DNA of 64,000 bases from NCBI RefSeq assembly GCF_011927665.1, contig NZ_JAATJA010000004.1, positions 124,001 to 188,000 of the forward strand, written 5' to 3'. Source of the DNA: Desulfobaculum xiamenense. GTDB taxonomy: Bacteria; Desulfobacterota; Desulfovibrionia; Desulfovibrionales; Desulfovibrionaceae. Positions 1,598 through 10,381 of this stretch are shown piece after piece. The notes beneath the pieces are model-generated. The model ran no database searches, was not told the DNA's origin, and saw only the letters and a program-made list of their open reading frames with translations. Every line of letters starts with the position of its first letter. Within the stretch, counting starts at the first letter, position 1. Both the position numbers and the translations under genes were made by a program.

Positions 1598-1903
1598 CTA
1601 GAATCCTCCGGCGCTGCGAAAGCGCGACTCGCGATAACTCAGGAAATCATGCCGCCGCCATGTGGCGTAGATGCCCGCCGCAACAAGGGCCGCGCAGGCG
1701 ACGGCGACAAGCCCCGGACTGTCCCAGACGACATGCGCCCGCCATTCCCCGCCCGGCAGCACTGCCGTGCGCACGAACAGGCCCGGCCACGAGCGCCCCT
1801 GCCCGAGAAGCTGATAGACGATCACCGGCATGGAGCCGACGTAGCACACGGCACACAGCGACCACAGGAAATGGCGCATCCAGTTGCGTAGGACAGGACC
1901 CAT
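1598..1903 (-). CDS. Small two-helix membrane protein (101 aa)
   Basis: Unrecognised inner-membrane protein. Two hydrophobic segments are visible: residues about 10-32 (FLWSLCAVCYVGSMPVIVY) and about 64-82 (GLVAVACAALVAAGIYATW), separated by a roughly 30-residue loop that is probably periplasmic. The ATG at 1903 has GGGAGGG six bases upstream. The preceding gene ends 14 bases upstream, so it is co-transcribed with the 206-residue membrane-anchored protein and the universal stress protein. A role in the envelope or in stress response is only a guess from context. Confidence 0.75.
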   Translation of the reverse strand: MGPVLRNWMRHFLWSLCAVCYVGSMPVIVYQLLGQGRSWPGLFVRTAVLPGGEWRAHVVWDSPGLVAVACAALVAAGIYATWRRHDFLSYRESRFRSAGGF

Positions 1904-1917
1904 GCTCACCCTCCCGG

Positions 1918-2538
1918 TCAGAATTTCAGATACAGCCAGTAGCCCAGCCCAAGGGCCACGATGAGAATCATCTCGATTACGGTGAACTTGACGAGAAACA
2001 GGCTTACGCGGCGCTGCTGCGGCGTCATGGTCAGCCAGCAGCGGCGCATGAATAGCCGCCAGAACGCGCCGGATAGGCCGCAGGCACCGCATACGCGCAG
2101 ATACTCGCGCAGGCTACGCAGCCAGAAGAACGCCCACTTGCCACGAAACTCGGCGGGCACGTTGGCTTGCATGGGCGGCTCGCCGGAGCTGGTGAACAGC
2201 GTGTTCGCCCCGTCGGCATGGGAGCGGGCCATGAGCGCCACGCCAAGCGGCTCGATCTCCGCCACCCACGAGACGTGGTTCGCGTGCATGCGGATGCGCA
2301 CTGTGAGCGGCTCGTCCAGCAGATGGTCGTGGACATCGAGCGTCTCGCCGTCGCACCGCGCGATTTCCCAGTGGGGATTGAGGCGGGCCAGCGTCTCTGG
2401 CGTGAGCGCGGTCCAGAATTCCGGGGCCCACGGCAGGTTGACCTCGGTCCATGTCGCGTCGCTGCGCATGAGGCGATCCATCATGTCCCGAAACTGTTGG
2501 CCGGACGTGTCCATCATCCAGCGAGAATACACGTTCAC
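1918..2538 (-). CDS. Hypothetical protein with C-terminal membrane anchor (206 aa)
   Basis: Unrecognised. About 180 mostly soluble residues are followed by one strong membrane segment at the very C-terminus (VIEMILIVALGLGYWLYL), with basic residues (RRCW, QQRR) just before it. This is a tail-anchored layout with the bulk of the protein in the cytoplasm. The likely start is the GTG at 2538, whose first bases overlap the stop of the universal stress gene (GTGA overlap), implying translational coupling. ATG codons at 2517 and 2514 are alternatives that shorten the protein by 7-8 residues. It is the middle gene of a three-gene operon. Confidence 0.7.
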   Translation of the reverse strand: MNVYSRWMMDTSGQQFRDMMDRLMRSDATWTEVNLPWAPEFWTALTPETLARLNPHWEIARCDGETLDVHDHLLDEPLTVRIRMHANHVSWVAEIEPLGVALMARSHADGANTLFTSSGEPPMQANVPAEFRGKWAFFWLRSLREYLRVCGACGLSGAFWRLFMRRCWLTMTPQQRRVSLFLVKFTVIEMILIVALGLGYWLYLKF

Positions 2539-2981
2539 GGAGCCACCAGCAACGGACAGGGTAATTCGGGGTGCAAGAGCCTGTCGTCCAGCCGCGCCCG
2601 AAAGCCGGGAGCCTGCCGCTGCTGTCGCGTTCCGACCACAATGAGATCCGCTCCTGTTTCGCGGGCGGCGTCGGTTATGGATTGCTCCAGAGGCCCCACC
2701 CGCCGCACGAACGCGGGATCGAGCGGGGCGATCTGTTCGCGGATGCGTTCCCACACGGCGCGCATCTCGCGGTCTATCTCGGCCTCCACGTAGTCCGCGA
2801 AATGGTTGCGTGTGGCGGAGGAATTGAGCCAGTCGTCCCCGGTCATGAGGCTCCAGTCCGCGTTGACCACGGAAAGCACGGTAAGCCGCGCTCCCCAGTC
2901 CCCGGCCAGCCGCGCGGCGAGCTGTTCTGCCCGCTGCGCGCCGGGGGTGCCATGTGTTGCCACGAGGATGTTTGCGAACAT
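2535..2981 (-). CDS. Universal stress protein (UspA family)
   Basis: A 148-residue single-domain Usp protein. It begins MFANILVATHGTPGAQRAEQ and ends with DLIVVGTRQQR, a degenerate form of the nucleotide-binding G-2x-G-9x-G(S/T) region, then PCPLLVAP, the family's closing strand. Family members are cytoplasmic dimers involved in stress survival, some of them binding ATP; the degenerate glycine loop makes ATP binding uncertain. GAAGGAAAC directly precedes the ATG at 2981. It is the first gene of an operon with two membrane proteins (1918-2538 and 1598-1903) and overlaps the next gene. Confidence 0.9.
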   Translation of the reverse strand: MFANILVATHGTPGAQRAEQLAARLAGDWGARLTVLSVVNADWSLMTGDDWLNSSATRNHFADYVEAEIDREMRAVWERIREQIAPLDPAFVRRVGPLEQSITDAARETGADLIVVGTRQQRQAPGFRARLDDRLLHPELPCPLLVAP

Positions 2982-3035: not shown

Positions 3036-3115
3036 GGCGGATGAGGGAGGGCCTGTGCGGACCGGCGGGTCCGCGTCGGCATGCGGAGGACGCCGCGCCG
3101 TCGCGCGGCCATCCA

Positions 3116-3286
3116 CTACGCCAACCATTTGGTGAACAGCAGGACGAAGAAGACCACCACGAGCACGAAGCCGAGGGCCGTCAGGTCCTCGTTGCGCTCG
3201 GAAGCGAACACCGACAGGGCGCGCTCCTCGTTGGAGGACTGCTCGTCACGCTGCACGTCGCAATTTTCCACTCTCACTTCGGACAT
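3116..3286 (-). CDS. Single-helix membrane microprotein linked to the YeiH transporter (56 aa)
   Basis: A small gene beginning MSEVRVENCDVQ and ending FTKWLA. About 35 acidic, polar residues are followed by one hydrophobic helix (LGFVLVVVFFVLLF). The start is firm: AGGAGGAACCC directly precedes the ATG at 3286, and this ribosome-binding site overlaps the stop codon of the transporter gene, whose last base is at 3296. That coupling, the short spacer and the single membrane span suggest an accessory or stabilising subunit of the transporter, as small one-helix partners do for other carriers. The function is inferred from position only. Confidence 0.8.
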   Translation of the reverse strand: MSEVRVENCDVQRDEQSSNEERALSVFASERNEDLTALGFVLVVVFFVLLFTKWLA

Positions 3287-3295
3287 GGGTTCCTC

Positions 3296-4936
3296 CTACT
3301 TGAGCACGACTTCCTTGACGAACAGGATGACCACCAGGAATGACAGCGTGGCCTTGGTCACGCCGGAGATGAGGCCGATGGCCAGCGGCCAACTGCCCGC
3401 CTGCGCGATGGCCTTGCGCGTGATCTGCATGCCGAGGCCGATGAGCCCGTAGGCGAAGAACCACATCATGGCGTCTGTCAGCGCGACGATGGTCTTGGAC
3501 TTCTTGTGGACCTGCTTCACGGCGTGATTCACGGCGGACTTGAGTTCCGCGGAAATGGCGATTTCCTTGCCCTTGGCGCGGGCGAGGATGGACTCCAGCG
3601 CATCCATGCGCTTTCTGGCCGTGGTGTCGTACACGGCGCTGTTGTCCTTGTCTGCGAAGTTTCCGGCCAACTGCCGCTGGTGGGCGAGGTCCGAAAGGGC
3701 CTCGGCCTCCTCCATGTGTAGACCGGGCACGCCCTGCGCCACGGCACCCTTCACCACCTCCAGCTCCTCAGGAGTCACCTCGGTGCGCTGGCTGTAGCTG
3801 AAGTCGAGATACTTGCCCTTGTAGTGGCTGGGCGGGCTGAACAGGCCGACGGACGACATGAGGAACAGCAGCAGGAAGCCGAGGATGAACAGTGGGAACT
3901 TGTCGATGACCACTTCCTTGAAGCTGAGCTTCTGTCCGACCTCGCGGCCATACCACATGGCCAGCACCAGCACGATGACCGGCAGGAAGAGCACGCGGGT
4001 GATGTTGAAGATCTCGCCGACCTTGAGGGTCTTGATGTCCACGGCGTTGTAGGCCAAGCAGGCCGCCGCCACCTGTGCGGAATTGAGGATGCCCGTGCCC
4101 GCCCACGCGCCGAACTGGGTGGGCGTCATGCCCACGATCTTGCCAATGGTGGGGAAGGCAAACATGCACAGCACGCCGAAGCCGAGGATGGTGCCGATGG
4201 TGTAGGCCATCTCCGAGCACCGCGCGCGCACCACCGGCGCGCAGGCCACGGTGGCCGACACGCCGCACACGCCCATGCCCGCCGAAAGCACGCCGCTCAT
4301 GGACTTGGGCTGGTTGAAGATGCGCCCCAGCCACAGCACCATAAACACCGTGCCCAGCACGAAGAAGCCGATCATCCACACGGAGGTCATGCCCAGCTTG
4401 GCCAGTTCCGCGAAGGAGTAGCGCGCGCCGAGCAGGATGACGCCCATCTTGAGCACGAAGCGCGCCGTCTTTACGCCCGAGGCCGCGAAGTGCGGGATGC
4501 CCCACGTGTTGGTGATGATGATGCCCACGAGGATGCCGAGCACCACGTAGTTGAGGTTCAGGACCTTGTACATGGAGAAGCCGAATGCCCCCTCAAGCCC
4601 CTTGGACGCGATAACCACCAGCGGTTCGGCGAACCAGCGGATGGTCATGGCCAGCAGGACGATGAACAGGATGCCGGGGATGGTGTTGATGACGAAGGTG
4701 TCGAAGTTGGTGATCGCCTTGTCCCGGCGCGCGTTGAGCAGCACTCCCGTCACCACGCCGAGAATGCCGCCCACGTAGCCGAGGATGACCATCGTATCCA
4801 TTTCCTTGTGAACGTGCAGGTATTTCAGCGCATCGGTCACCGCGCCGGACTGCACGAGCGCGGCATAGGCCAGCATGATCACGCTGACAATCCATACCGG
4901 CGCACATCCTGGACGATCCAGCTCTCCATGTGCCAT
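3296..4936 (-). CDS. YeiH/UPF0324-family putative sulfate or sulfonate transporter
   Basis: A 546-residue polytopic membrane protein of the YeiH (putative sulfate exporter) family. Family features include repeated glycine-rich helices such as GILNSAQVAAACLAY and VLSAGMGVCGVSATVAC. E. coli YeiH has about 350 residues; the extra length is largely a hydrophilic, charged segment of about 110 residues before the last helices (from SPPSHYKGKYLDF to VHKKSKTIVAL). TGGAGGCGAAC precedes the ATG at 4936. It is followed directly by a 56-residue one-helix gene. A strong sigma-54 promoter (4987-5003) precedes it, and the divergent genes encode a c-heme sensor kinase and a sigma-54 activator. In a sulfate reducer a role with sulfate, sulfite or sulfonates is plausible, but substrate and direction are not proven. 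Confidence 0.85.
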   Translation of the reverse strand: MAHGELDRPGCAPVWIVSVIMLAYAALVQSGAVTDALKYLHVHKEMDTMVILGYVGGILGVVTGVLLNARRDKAITNFDTFVINTIPGILFIVLLAMTIRWFAEPLVVIASKGLEGAFGFSMYKVLNLNYVVLGILVGIIITNTWGIPHFAASGVKTARFVLKMGVILLGARYSFAELAKLGMTSVWMIGFFVLGTVFMVLWLGRIFNQPKSMSGVLSAGMGVCGVSATVACAPVVRARCSEMAYTIGTILGFGVLCMFAFPTIGKIVGMTPTQFGAWAGTGILNSAQVAAACLAYNAVDIKTLKVGEIFNITRVLFLPVIVLVLAMWYGREVGQKLSFKEVVIDKFPLFILGFLLLFLMSSVGLFSPPSHYKGKYLDFSYSQRTEVTPEELEVVKGAVAQGVPGLHMEEAEALSDLAHQRQLAGNFADKDNSAVYDTTARKRMDALESILARAKGKEIAISAELKSAVNHAVKQVHKKSKTIVALTDAMMWFFAYGLIGLGMQITRKAIAQAGSWPLAIGLISGVTKATLSFLVVILFVKEVVLK

Positions 4937-4986: not shown

Positions 4987-5003
4987 AGGCAATCTTTGTG
5001 CCA
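4987..5003 (-). promoter_or_regulatory. Sigma-54 (-24/-12) promoter of the YeiH-type transporter
   Basis: Minus strand reads TGGCACAAAGATTGCCT. The invariant GG (5002-5001) and GC (4990-4989) are exactly 10 bp apart, matching the consensus TGGCAC-N5-TTGC. Expected transcription start is near 4977, about 40 bases before the ATG. The palindrome ACAATTGT at 5047-5054, about 45 bp further upstream, could be part of an activator site. Confidence 0.85.
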
Positions 5004-5188
5004 TTGTTGCGGTTGACCATTCTTGCCCACGCAACGGTCGTTTTGAACAATTGTCGTCGTCACGAAATGCAAACTTCGGAAAGCACCTGTAAACTCAAGG
5101 ACGCACCGCCCCTTGCGCCGACGGCCTATCCCGACTAGTGTGCCATGCACAGGACCATGCCCGACGCACCGCGCGGGTACATCACACC

Positions 5189-7642
5189 ATGCGAGTCACG
5201 AAACCGACCAAACTCCAGACGCGCTTCCTCATAGGCCTCGCGGGCATCGCCCTCGGCGGCGGCCTGCTCTTTGCCTGCGGCCTGTATTTCCATCTGCGTT
5301 CGCTCCTTGAGACGGAGGTCGCCAGCAAGGCGGAACTGATGCTCAATCAGGTGGAGGCGGTGCGCACCTATGTCCGCTCCACCCTGCGGCCCACCATGTA
5401 CCGCGTGCTGCCCAAGGATCAGTTCATCATCGAGGCCATGAGCACGTCCTACATCTCGCGCAAGGTGATGGACGGTATGGCCTCAGGAGACGTGACGCCC
5501 CACAACTACCGCCGCGTGGCCATAAACGCCCGCAATCCGCACTACGAGGCCAACAAGCGCGAGATCGAACTCATCCGCTACTTCCGCGAACATCCGAGCG
5601 CCACGACCTTCTCGCGTTTCGACACCATCGCCGGGCAGCAGTTCTACATCACCGCGCGCCCGGTCACCTTCGTGACCTCGTGCATGAACTGCCACGGCTC
5701 GCCGGACAAGGCCCCCCGCGAACTCATCGAACGCTACGGCAGCCAGCGCGGCTTCGGCCACGAGGCGGATGTGGTGGCTGGCGTGACGTCCGTCACCCTG
5801 CCCGTGGGTAGCGCCCTCTCACGCATCCGCGGGGCCACGCTCGGCTATATCTCGCTGGCCGTGGCTGGTGCGCTGCTCTTTTTCGGCATCGTCAATGTGC
5901 TTTTCAATCGCGTGGTGGTCCACAACCTGCGCCGCCTCACCGACGTGCTCGGGCATCACTTCACCGAGCAGGCCGATACCGATGTGTTGGACCGGCTCGG
6001 CAAGGGCGACGAGATTGAGGACGTCATGCACGGCGTGGAGGAACTGGCCGCGCACCTCAGCACCGCCCGGCGCGAGCTGGAGCACTACGCCGTGAACCTG
6101 CGGCGCATGGTGGACGACCGCACGGCGGACCTCTCCCTCGAAGCCATGGAGCGCCGCACGGACGTCATGCTCTTCGTGAGTCTGCTCGACACGCTTAATG
6201 TCAGCCACACCCGCCGCGAACTCATCGAGGCCTCGCTGCCGCGCATCGGCCAGCGGTTCAAGGCGCGCAGGGCCGCCTTCATTTGCACGCTGGCATCCCA
6301 GAATTTCTACTCGTGGCCCGTGCCCGACGTCCGCCCGCCACTGCCGGACGACTGGCAGCGCATCGTCGCCTCGGGCGAGGCACTCGTCTTCCACGACCGC
6401 GCCTACGTGCCCGTGCGTTCCTCGGACCACACCGTGGAGGGCTACCTGTACCTCGAAACCGGCGACAACGCGGAGATCGAACCCGGTCAGGTGCGCGACG
6501 TGCTTGTGGCTCTCGGCCAGCAGCTCGGCATCGCCATGGAGAATCTCAACGCGCTGGACACGCTGCTCACCCAGAACGACCTGCTCGGCTCCATCTTCGA
6601 GGGCATCGCGGACCCACTGCTGCTCATGGATGGCGGGTGCCGCGTGGTGCTTGCCAATCAGGCCGCGCGGGTGCTCGGCGCGTCGCAGGCCGACGAGGGC
6701 ATCGACGCCGCGCCGCGTCTTCTGGGCCTCGACCCCAACAACGGATCGGGCTGCCCCTTGCAGAGCGTTCTCGGCCGGGGCACGCCTCTGTCCTACGAGG
6801 AGGAAATCCCCGGTGGGCGGACCTTCCAGGTTTCGGTCTATCCCGTGCGCGGGGGGCAGAACCGCGACGGGCGCGCCGTCGTCTACGCGCGCGAGGTTAC
6901 GGCCGAAAAGCTCATGCTCACGCGCATGCAGCACAACGAGAAGCTCGTCACCGTGGGCAAGCTGGCCGCCGGACTCGCCCACGAGATCAACAATCCGCTC
7001 GGCATCATCGCCTGCTACGCGGAACTGTTGCGCTCCGCCGCGGGGGGGGACCAGCAGCGCGCCGACCTCGATGTCATCCTGCGCCATACGCGGCAGGCCC
7101 AGCGCGTGCTCCAGGAACTTTTGAACTTCGCCCGCCCGCGCAAGGCGTCCGACGGTCCCTGCGATCCCGGCGATGTGCTACGCATGGTGTGCGACGTGTT
7201 CGCCGTGCAGGCCGAGGCACGTCACGTCAACCTGACCACCGAGTTGCCCGTGGCCCTGCCGCTTATCAAGGCGGACCCCGCGTCTCTCGAACAGATTCTC
7301 TCGAACCTCTTGCTCAACGCCCTCGACGCCGTGGCCCGCGATACCGGGCAGGTCCACCTGCGCGCCGTGCACGATGCCACCCGCTGCGAAGTGCTCATCA
7401 TCGTTGCCGACAACGGTCCCGGCATCCCGCGCGAGAACCTCGGCCGCATTTTCGACCCCTTCTTCACCACCAAGGACGTGGGCCGGGGAACGGGCCTCGG
7501 ACTGGCCGTGGTCTACGGCCTCGTACGCGAGATGGGTGCCACCATCGACGTCGAAAATCGCGATGGCGCACAGTTCACGCTCACTTTCCCCGTTCCGGAG
7601 GATACGGATGCAACAGATGCAGATACACAACGCCCAGCCTGA
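5189..7642 (+). CDS. Membrane sensor histidine kinase with periplasmic c-type heme domain
   Basis: An 817-residue histidine kinase. Order: TM1 (residues about 12-33); a Tll0287-like (DUF3365) sensor domain with a covalent-heme motif CMNCH (C165, C168, H169); TM2 (about 215-238); HAMP-like linker; a GAF-like region (about 320-450); a PAS domain (about 470-570); HisKA with phospho-acceptor His in [11 protein letters not shown]; HATPase with DNGPGIP and [11 protein letters not shown]. The heme domain faces the periplasm and probably senses redox state or a small gas. I took the ATG at 5189 since TM1 follows directly; a GTG at 5138 is possible and the ribosome site is weak. The gene overlaps the sigma-54 response regulator by 35 bases, so the two form a cognate pair. 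Confidence 0.9.
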
Positions 7643-9026
7643 GGCGATACTCATCGTCGACGATCAGGAAGATTTCGCGCGCGGCCTCGCCCGCCTGCTC
7701 AAGCGCGAGTTCCCCGACGTCGCCACCCGCACCGCCACCAGCGGGGACGAAGCGCTGGACATCCTCTCCCGCGAACGTGTGTCGCTCATGTTCTCGGACC
7801 TGCGCATGCCCGGCATCGGCGGCATTGAACTCCTGCGGCAGGCCCTTGCCGCGGAGCCGAATCTCTCCGTGGTCATGCTCACGGGGTACGGCTCCATCGA
7901 ATCCGCCGTGGAGGCCCTCAAGGCCGGAGCCTACGATTTCCTGACCAAGCCCGTGGAGCCGGACGCACTCTTCCGCGCCACGGCAAAGGGGCTCGAACGC
8001 GCCCGTCTGCTCGGAGAGAACTCGCGCTTGCGCGAGCTCATGGCCAAAAGCGAACTCGGGACGGCCCTCATCGGCGAATCCGCGCCCATGAAGCGGCTCA
8101 AGGAGACCATCGCCGCTGTCGCCGCCAGCGACTACACCGTGCTCATCACCGGCGAATCCGGCACCGGCAAGGAAATGGTCGCCCGCGCCGTGCAGTCCGT
8201 GTCCGCCCGTGCCGCAAAGTCCTTTCTTCAGGTCAATTGTCCCGCCATTCCGGAGCAGCTTCTCGAAAGTGAACTCTTCGGGCACGTCAAGGGCGCGTTC
8301 ACCGGTGCCGACCGCTCCCGCAAAGGGCTCTTCGTCGCAGCCGACGGCGGAACCCTGCTCCTCGACGAAATCGGCGACATTCCCATGAACATCCAGACCA
8401 AGCTCCTGCGCGTGCTTCAGGAGCGCGAAGTCCGTCCCGTTGGCTCCAGCGCCTCCGTGCGTGTGGACGTGCGCATTCTCGCCTCCACCAATCAGGACCT
8501 CGAACGCAAGATGCGCGAAGGGCTCTTCCGCGAAGACCTCTTCTATCGTCTCAACGTCCTCAACGTGCATGTCCCCGCCCTCAACCGCCGCACCGAGGAC
8601 ATTCCGCTCCTCGCCCACCATTTCCTCTCGCAGGCTTGCCGCGAAATGCGCCTCATGCCCAAGGAGATCGCTCCGGAAGTTCTTGCGTGGCTCACCAGCC
8701 GTCCGTGGCCGGGAAACGTCCGCGAAATGCAGAACTTCATGCGTCGACTCGCCGTGTTTTCGCAGGGTGACGTCATCGATCTCGCCCTCGTTCGTCTTGC
8801 CGAGGCCCGGCCCGACGCCGAACCCGCCGACGACAGCCTCCCCCCGTACAAGGACGCCAAGTCCCGCGTCATGGACGAATTCACCCGCAACTACGTCACC
8901 GAACTGCTGCGCAAGACCGCCGGAAACATCTCCGAAGCGGCCCGCGTCTCCGGCCTCGAACGCGTTTCCCTTCAGAAGATCCTCCGCCGCCTCGATATCG
9001 ACGCCGAACGCTACCGCCGCGCGTAG
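7608..9026 (+). CDS. Sigma-54-dependent response regulator (NtrC type)
   Basis: A 472-residue protein with all three NtrC-type domains. The receiver (about 12-125) has acidic pair D18/D19, phospho-acceptor D64 in SDLRMPG and the Lys of TKPVEP. The AAA+ domain (about 150-390) has Walker A GESGTGKE near residue 182 and the sigma-54 contact loop GAFTGA near 229. The Fis-type helix-turn-helix lies at the C-terminus ([20 protein letters not shown]). GGAGG lies eight bases before the ATG at 7608, inside the end of the kinase gene, so translation is coupled. It should activate sigma-54 promoters when phosphorylated. The nearest visible target is the divergent transporter promoter at 4987-5003. Confidence 0.95.
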
Positions 9027-9289: not shown

Positions 9290-10381
9290 CTAGACGCCGT
9301 GCAGGTGGGCGCAGTGTCGGCAGGGGTCCGGCGGGCGGTGGGTGGTGGCGAAGGCCTCGGCGATGGCGGCCACGGCGTGGTCGAGGCGGGCCGCGCTTTC
9401 GAAGTCCGCGCCGATGCCTGCGGTGAGCGCGTCGTGGATGTCGAGGCGGCGCTCAAAGGCGTGTCTGAAGGCCCGGTATGGCGCGCTGTCCCATATTTCG
9501 GCGAGGGGGCTGGTGGCGATGTTTCCGAAGCCGAGTCGGGAGGCCTGTGTGCGGCTGTCCCCGAAGCGGACGGGATATGGCCCGGTCATGGGCGGGCAGA
9601 GGTACACGCAGGGCGAGACTGTGCCGTCTGCGGCGATGAAGAGGCTGTGCAGCGGGTCGCGCGGGCAGACGGGCAGTTCCTCGGTGCGCATGGGCGGGGG
9701 GACGAAGCCGATGCCGTGCCGCCACGAGGCGACGCGTGCGGCAAGCCAGTGCCATGTGTGGCGTTCTGGGCGGTCATAGGCCACGAGAGCGGCCTGGGTG
9801 TCGCAACAGACATGGACCATGTGCGTGGGGACGACCCTGTCCGCCCCGGCGCGGGCGCATTGGCGCAGGATGGAGGGGATGGCGCGTGCGGTGCCGGGCG
9901 TGACGAGCAGGTTCACCAGCAGTGGCGGGTGGCGGTCGTGCCGGGCCGCATGGAAGGTGGCGAGCGCTTCGAGGGCGCGGGAGAAGGTGCCCCGACCGCG
10001 CAGGGCGGTCTGCGTGGCGTCGTCCGGGCCTGCGAGGCTCACGGCCATGGATGCCAGCCCGGCGTCGACGAGGGCGCGGGCCGTTTTATTGGAAAGGTGC
10101 GTGCCGTTGGTGGACAGGCTCGGCCGTGCCCCGCGCTTCGCCACGGCGCGCACGATGTCCGGCATGTCGTCGCGCAGGAGCGATTCGCCCCAGCCTTGCA
10201 GGTGCATGGATTCGCAGGATTCGGCCGCGTCGATGAGGGCGTCGAGAACGCGGGGCGGCATGTCCGCGTCGACCCACTGTTCCGGGAAGTTTCCGCGCAG
10301 GCAGGTGGCACAGCGCAGGGTGCAGCGGGAGGTCGGTTCGGCCTGAATGCTGGCGAAGGGGCTAGCGGGGGGGGCAGCCAT
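9290..10381 (-). CDS. Radical SAM protein with SPASM-type C-terminus
   Basis: A 363-residue radical SAM enzyme. The 4Fe-4S/SAM motif CTLRCATC lies at residues about 20-27 and the SAM-binding GWGESLL about 63. The C-terminal part carries extra cysteines (CPRDPLHS, CVYLC and the closing CRHCAHL) in the spacing expected for an auxiliary SPASM cluster. Such proteins modify peptides, cofactors or sugars through radical chemistry. The gene starts 20 bases inside the end of the glycosyltransferase gene, so the two are translationally coupled and probably act on the same product, for instance a surface glycan or a modified peptide. The substrate cannot be named. Confidence 0.85.
   Translation of the reverse strand: MAAPPASPFASIQAEPTSRCTLRCATCLRGNFPEQWVDADMPPRVLDALIDAAESCESMHLQGWGESLLRDDMPDIVRAVAKRGARPSLSTNGTHLSNKTARALVDAGLASMAVSLAGPDDATQTALRGRGTFSRALEALATFHAARHDRHPPLLVNLLVTPGTARAIPSILRQCARAGADRVVPTHMVHVCCDTQAALVAYDRPERHTWHWLAARVASWRHGIGFVPPPMRTEELPVCPRDPLHSLFIAADGTVSPCVYLCPPMTGPYPVRFGDSRTQASRLGFGNIATSPLAEIWDSAPYRAFRHAFERRLDIHDALTAGIGADFESAARLDHAVAAIAEAFATTHRPPDPCRHCAHLHGV

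Follow-up and report, generated by a model that had tools for sequence, protein, structure and literature searches.

The closest published system is DVU0540-DVU0539/DVU0542-DVU0545 of D. vulgaris Hildenborough (PMC3333781, PMC4641369, and PMC10102598). As described in the available parts of these papers, a kinase and a sigma-54 response regulator are encoded divergently from a sigma-54-dependent operon with a PSE transporter and universal stress proteins. When placed in an E. coli reporter, the DVU0542 promoter responds to DVU0539 as an activator (PMC3333781), and gel shift experiments confirmed the binding site of this regulator. Nine sigma-54 operons of D. vulgaris encode TSUP or PSE transporters, listed without substrate data in the part of PMC4641369 available. 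When molybdate is present, DVU0540 (the kinase) and DVU0542 (the first stress protein) are important, the remaining genes of the cluster are detrimental, and no molybdate phenotype is reported for the counterpart regulator in lactate-sulfate medium (PMC10102598, available text). What activates DVU0539 is described as unknown in the available text of PMC6456213. No heme sensor for this system came to light in the available texts: "heme" at the start of a word is absent from PMC4641369 and occurs in PMC3333781 only in the title of a reference. Since control of a PSE and UspA operon by a kinase-regulator pair through sigma-54 is published for D. vulgaris, the general kind of circuit is already known.

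Two further systems resemble parts of the locus described here. In Salmonella, a YeiH-type membrane protein is likewise under a dedicated activator and linked to sulfite stress; however, this activator, YeiE, is of the LysR type and binds sulfite, and no heme kinase is mentioned in the available part of the paper (PMC12880088). The sCache_heme or Tll0287-like domains (PMC12889525; PDB 5b82) share with the present sensor the PF11845 assignment, a CxxCH motif, a predicted periplasmic location, fusion to a histidine kinase, and, in the case of the NO-binding member, the lack of an axial Cys, but no target genes are described for them in the available text. Among the matches listed by a literature text search (titles and the starts of abstracts, with subscription papers mostly outside it), no paper tied a heme sensor to the PF03601 transporter family.

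Here, we describe a locus of Desulfobaculum xiamenense in a window of 64,000 nucleotides, by which we mean the whole stretch of DNA that was analyzed. Through a conserved switch that recurs in many related bacteria, the transporter is very probably turned on by a heme-type sensor together with its activator. The best explanation as a whole, to which we assign a probability of about 0.8, is a two-component, sigma-54-dependent switch of the transporter operon and of a second PF03601 gene. A preliminary description had proposed that a sigma-54 promoter links a c-heme two-component system to the transporter; the present analysis adds the operator dyads, the second target, and the published D. vulgaris counterpart.

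Organization and conservation of the locus

The five genes of the putative operon lie on the minus strand in the order PSE-P56-UspA-P205-P101, and the kinase gene followed by the regulator gene is divergent on the plus strand. This order differs from that of D. vulgaris (UspA-PSE-133 aa-UspA in the available descriptions). The features are the following:

3296-4936, minus strand: PF03601/YeiH-type (PSE) transporter of 546 aa, long variant (Pfam and comparison with homologues)
3115-3286, minus strand: P56, a single-span membrane peptide of 56 aa kept beside the transporter (synteny and predicted span)
2535-2981, minus strand: universal stress protein UspA, PF00582 (Pfam and synteny)
1918-2517, minus strand: P205, a START/SRPBCC-like domain with a predicted C-terminal membrane span, start codon assumed (predicted model)
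1598-1903, minus strand: P101, 101 aa with two predicted membrane spans, at the end of the operon in the form conserved across Desulfovibrionaceae
5189-7642, plus strand: sensor histidine kinase with a periplasmic Tll0287-like (sCache_heme) domain (Pfam and PDB match; CxxCH codons at 5681-5695)
7608-9026, plus strand: NtrC-type response regulator with a receiver, a sigma-54 AAA domain with GAFTGA, and a Fis-type HTH (Pfam and regulator tree)
4988-5003, minus strand: sigma-54 -24/-12 promoter of the transporter operon, TGGCACAAAGATTGCC (matrix and conserved position)
5068-5085, minus strand: proximal 18-bp dyad, TGCTTTCCGAAGTTTGCA, a likely regulator binding site 82 nt upstream of the -24 element (spacer scan)
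5088-5105, minus strand: distal 18-bp dyad, TGCGTCCTTGAGTTTACA, 102 nt upstream of the -24 element (spacer scan and comparison with the second transporter)

The transporter ATG at 4936 is preceded by GGAGGC. The divergent kinase with CxxCH and NtrC-type activator with GAFTGA named in the preliminary description were both recovered, the motifs being CMNCH at kinase residues 165 to 169 and GAFTGA at regulator residue 229. A radical SAM/SPASM protein is encoded on the minus strand (9290-10381) beside the regulator gene. Of the 53 named loci mentioned below, 9 have relatives of it close to the cassette (L047, L057, L064, L065, L069, L074, L075, L089, and L090); none of the seven cassette relatives with the full seven-gene order does.

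In a search of 149 genomes, including its own, the transporter was 72 to 75% identical over its full length in seven others, all of which keep the seven genes in the same divergent order. The transporter, P56, UspA, the START-like protein, the heme-type kinase, and the NtrC-type regulator are found together across many Desulfobacterota. A scan of named genomes gave 53 loci, including Salidesulfovibrio brasiliensis, Pseudodesulfovibrio, Desulfocapsa, Desulfobulbaceae, Desulfosarcina cetonica, and Desulfomonile. Counted from the table by eye, matches to both kinase and regulator were present in 31 of them; L066 and L076, with weak matches only, were excluded from this figure, and contig ends cut many other loci. 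The long transporter and the stress protein were also kept in seven loci of Nitrospirae/Nitrospiria, Gammaproteobacteria, Muproteobacteria, and Sulfuricaulis (L081, L084 to L088, and L093), with no kinase or regulator match within the stretch examined. Several of these seven carry a second PF03601 gene close by.

In one locus of Desulfobulbaceae (L089, 14217-18628), the cassette continues with a protein kinase-Usp-CZB-like fusion, in which the CZB match falls under the Pfam cutoff, a calcineurin-like phosphoesterase, and a Tll0287-protein kinase fusion. Relatives of the phosphoesterase were found in 21 of 61 clustered loci. As to the last fusion, the words "serine," "threonine," and "Pkinase" are absent from the text of PMC12889525.

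The heme-type sensor kinase

The kinase matched PF11845 (Tll0287-like) with 117.8 bits against a cutoff of 24.1, as well as HisKA and HATPase_c, and its sensor domain matched PDB 5b82 with an E value of 2.4e-6. The CMNCH motif lies between predicted membrane spans at residues 14 to 32 and 221 to 239, so that the heme motif should face the periplasm. All but one of 60 sensor proteins contained CxxCH, the exception being a truncated row, and 58 of 59 sensor domains had no cysteine besides those of the motif. Because the domain has no other cysteine, we propose that the sixth ligand of the heme is exchangeable. Apart from this kinase, a Tll0287-like domain was found in this genome only within a 547-aa frame (L114, G000:C1:187613-188071). 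An HExN motif, which would permit phosphatase action in HisKA kinases, is present at residue 598 of the kinase. Such a capacity fits the D. vulgaris counterpart, for which the authors propose in the available text that the kinase opposes the regulator (PMC10102598).

By analogy with related domains, it is plausible that the kinase responds to NO or to a redox change. According to the available part of a 2026 preprint (PMC12889525), a signaling-type member without an axial Cys binds NO, releases it slowly, and forms no stable complex with O2, and a stand-alone member looks redox related; NO and redox change are therefore the leading candidate signals here. We give roughly even odds to a kinase that senses the redox state or another heme ligand (H2S, CO, or oxidants) instead of NO. 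Sulfide is abundant around these cells, which speaks for such a ligand. The redox-like behavior of the stand-alone domain members (PMC12889525, available text) also favors this reading. Against it, the signaling-type member shown there to bind NO lacks the axial Cys, and the present sensors are also without the second Cys.

The transporter and the operon proteins

The transporter matched PF03601 with 164.9 bits (cutoff, 24.5). Residues 367 to 476 of this long variant, about 110 in number, have no counterpart in shorter homologues. Comparison with the PDB by sequence gave no match up to an E value of 1, and a structure model of the transporter was set aside at a pLDDT of 64. By analogy, the substrate is likely to be sulfite or sulfate, and export of sulfite is plausible: Salmonella YeiH is required for sulfite resistance, according to the available part of a 2026 paper (PMC12880088), and sulfur metabolism features in the lineage names of many of the loci. 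A considerable probability, somewhat short of even, nevertheless remains with a transporter that moves another substrate (molybdate, another sulfur anion, or an organic sulfonate) or that imports. Disruption of genes of the DVU0543-DVU0545 stretch raises the fitness of D. vulgaris with molybdate (PMC10102598, available text), the PSE members of that organism come without substrate data, as noted above for PMC4641369, and the extra residues of the long variant also speak for a different substrate. In the main text available for an NO transcriptome of D. desulfuricans 27774 (PMC5701242), the terms "putative sulfate," "sulfate permease," and "universal stress" are absent.

P205 gave no Pfam match. 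Its confidently predicted model (pLDDT, 91) has a START/SRPBCC-like helix-grip fold, and structure alignment gave Z scores of 8.4 to 10.4 across 50 rows among the matches listed. These were mostly of the START/Bet v1 type (plant hormone receptors, StART domains, and aromatase/cyclases), with some unnamed proteins and one phosphoglucomutase. The best E value with Foldseek was 1.1e-3, with none at or below 0.001, and CoxG of Mycobacterium smegmatis was among the matches. Judging from the modeled fold, our guess would be a lipid or quinone ligand.

A regulator lineage associated with the transporter loci

The regulator gave Pfam matches over the cutoff to PF00072, PF00158, and PF02954. In a tree of 58 rows (57 different), the 44 transporter-linked rows (43 different) formed one group with support of 100/98; outside it fell seven other regulators of this genome and seven further rows. 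Within the group, rows tied to the long, short, and second transporter types were partly mixed, which indicates that one regulator lineage serves several transporter types.

These data bear on the question of whether a real promoter might be served by another sigma-54 regulator of the genome, with the adjacent kinase-regulator pair serving other targets. Candidates for such a role exist, as 26 further matches in the genome span the AAA region of the regulator with E values below 1e-50 (AAA-region matches, GAFTGA content aside), and in D. vulgaris some binding sites are common to the paralogues DVU0539 and DVU0946 (PMC3333781, available text). However, kinase, regulator, and transporter are syntenic, and the regulator group in the tree follows the transporter loci. 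Moreover, the runner-up by score among the regulators of this genome shows 46% identity, with AAA-only matches reaching 51%, compared to 56 to 65% for transporter-linked regulators elsewhere in Desulfovibrionaceae. We consider control by another regulator improbable and retain the adjacent pair as the probable controller.

The predicted sigma-54 promoter

The minus-strand sigma-54 sequence with exact GG-N10-GC spacing that had been quoted at 4987-5003 is present at 4988-5003, one base inside that interval. It shows no mismatch over the 10 consensus bases (TGGCAC-N5-TTGC, with the GG-N10-GC core). The element had been placed about 40 bases before the start; this distance holds for the expected transcription start but not for the element itself, whose -12 end lies 51 nt from the ATG. 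With up to two mismatches allowed, the loose consensus matched 28 times in the window compared to 32 matches expected, and the motif alone therefore proves nothing. When scored with a weight matrix derived from 22 sites at other loci, with the window site excluded, the site ranked first in the 64 kb with 16.0 bits (next, 12.4), a score under the lowest of the 22 training sites (17.4). Shuffling the upstream 350 nt 60 times (by dinucleotides or, failing that, plainly) never gave an equally good site.

The comparison of promoters covered 55 of the 61 loci L033 to L093. Left out were L035, which seems to share its contig of 18,950 bases with L045 (the regulators are identical), and five loci that were cut or partial (L062, L067, L082, L091, and L092). 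All 13 Desulfovibrionaceae loci with a divergent kinase carry a -24/-12 element with at most one mismatch 62 to 80 nt before the transporter start. Such a site was found within 350 nt of the transporter in only 4 of the remaining 42 loci; one of these 42, L046 of Desulfonauticus, lacks any GG-N10-GC site over that distance, and its kinase and regulator genes are located downstream. Sites further upstream (up to two mismatches) were seen in 22 of 26 regions, a count made without a shuffle control. As L034 and L043, and likewise L040 and L042, are close relatives, the counts are not independent events. A chance sigma-54 match, raised by the nonenriched loose consensus, can be dismissed as very improbable, because the site is the best in the window by matrix rank, its position is kept in the 13 loci, and dyads lie upstream of it.

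Candidate operator dyads

Alignment of the intergenic regions revealed a palindrome upstream of the -24 element. Its general form is TGYNNNC-N4-GNNNRCA, 18 bp long, and the window holds two copies 20 bp apart. Across the 39 regions with the kinase start inside the listed stretch, this form matched 12 times in the 13 Desulfovibrionaceae regions (9 regions positive) and 54 times in the 26 kinase-transporter intergenic regions of other lineages (25 positive). The pattern was derived from the same sequences in which it was later counted, and a scan of spacers 0 to 12 served as its control: spacer 4 alone was enriched, all others giving at most 2 matches in the 13 regions and at most 7 in the 26. 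Shuffled sequences gave means of 0.2 and 1.1 matches and maxima of 2 and 5, respectively. The four Desulfovibrionaceae regions without the pattern were L037, L041, L044, and L079; L037 has a close variant by eye. From these comparisons, the two 18-bp dyads are likely to be the activator site. The link through a sigma-54 circuit proposed in the preliminary description gains good support from the conserved promoter, the single-spacer dyads, the divergent synteny, and the grouping of the transporter-linked regulators. The redox or gas signal and the sulfur-oxyanion cargo that it also suggested are plausible by analogy with members of the two protein families.

The tight palindrome TGCWAAC-N4-GTTWGCA occurs exactly once in each of five of eight genomes, in four of them at this promoter. 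There is no exact copy in the genome of the window, whose dyads are degenerate. The exact dyad of the fifth genome, G115 (C1:3534715), was dropped as a target, since it lies within a terminator-like hairpin after another gene rather than at a promoter. In the present genome, dyad-like sequences alone were not clearly enriched, with 76 compared to 62 in the reversed control in one scan and 11 and 16 compared to 19 and 24 in a second. The specificity lies in the combination of promoter and dyad. Dyad-like places in this genome amounted to 27 rows, of which 3 had no mismatch (this promoter, the second transporter, and C2:544706). Five loci from the first of the two scans and from the composite search described below were inspected. 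A sigma-54-like site at a suitable distance is present at L115, which is the second transporter, and absent at L094, L095, L097, and L098.

A second PF03601 gene as a probable target

A composite pattern of promoter and dyad, applied to eight genomes, matched this promoter in five and the second transporter of the present genome, and nothing else; the reversed pattern gave no match. The composite missed this promoter in three of the eight genomes, and it was drawn up after the second place had been noticed, which means that the count was not made blind. In this genome, the second PF03601 gene encodes 578 aa (L104:9850-11583). Its dyad, TGCGTCCTTGAGTTAGCA, lies 105 nt before a sigma-54-like site, TGGAACGAGTGTTGCT, and equals the distal dyad of the window at 16 of 18 bases. 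The same regulator very probably drives the second gene via the same dyad. Among 30 loci of this second transporter type, including the present one, 25 showed a sigma-54-like site (up to two mismatches) and 14 showed the dyad, counted without a shuffle control. For the shorter PF03601 genes, which often have UspA adjacent, a distance of 70, 80 to 83, or 102 nt between dyad and sigma-54 site was read from the table by eye, again without a shuffle control, in 13 of 22 loci. In L161 (4202-9585), a single heme-type kinase-regulator pair lies beside three PF03601 genes, with six dyads between.

Proposed mechanism and implications

In the switch that we propose, a membrane kinase with a periplasmic c-heme-type domain would control the phosphorylation of the NtrC-type regulator encoded next to it. 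NO or a redox change would act at the heme through the exchangeable sixth ligand. The regulator would bind the two adjoining 18-bp dyads (5068-5105) and, through GAFTGA, open sigma-54 RNA polymerase at 4988-5003, upon which the divergent five-gene transporter operon would be transcribed. The promoter, dyads, operon, and second target are each supported by sequence comparison as parts of this explanation; we infer the binding of the regulator to the dyads, the direction of phosphorylation control, the attachment of heme and its ligand, and outward transport of sulfite or sulfate. As to physiology, we suggest that sulfite might accumulate when its reduction is blocked, for example by nitrite or NO, and would then be exported.

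A broader view, which we put forward tentatively and regard as rather unlikely in its full extent, is that of a widespread sulfur-anion emergency system. A periplasmic c-heme kinase of the NO-binding type, one regulator lineage, and one operator would serve several PF03601 types, along with UspA, the 56-aa peptide, and the membrane-anchored START-like protein. The outcome would be export of sulfite at times when its reductase is blocked by NO or nitrite. The cassette of Desulfobulbales would add heme-type sensor protein kinases and the phosphoesterase.

The locus brings together a sensor domain and a transporter family for which NO binding and a sulfite phenotype, respectively, have recently been reported. 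The candidate operator, the second target, and the wide range of homologues make the activating conditions of DVU0539 and the substrate of the PSE transporters directly testable.
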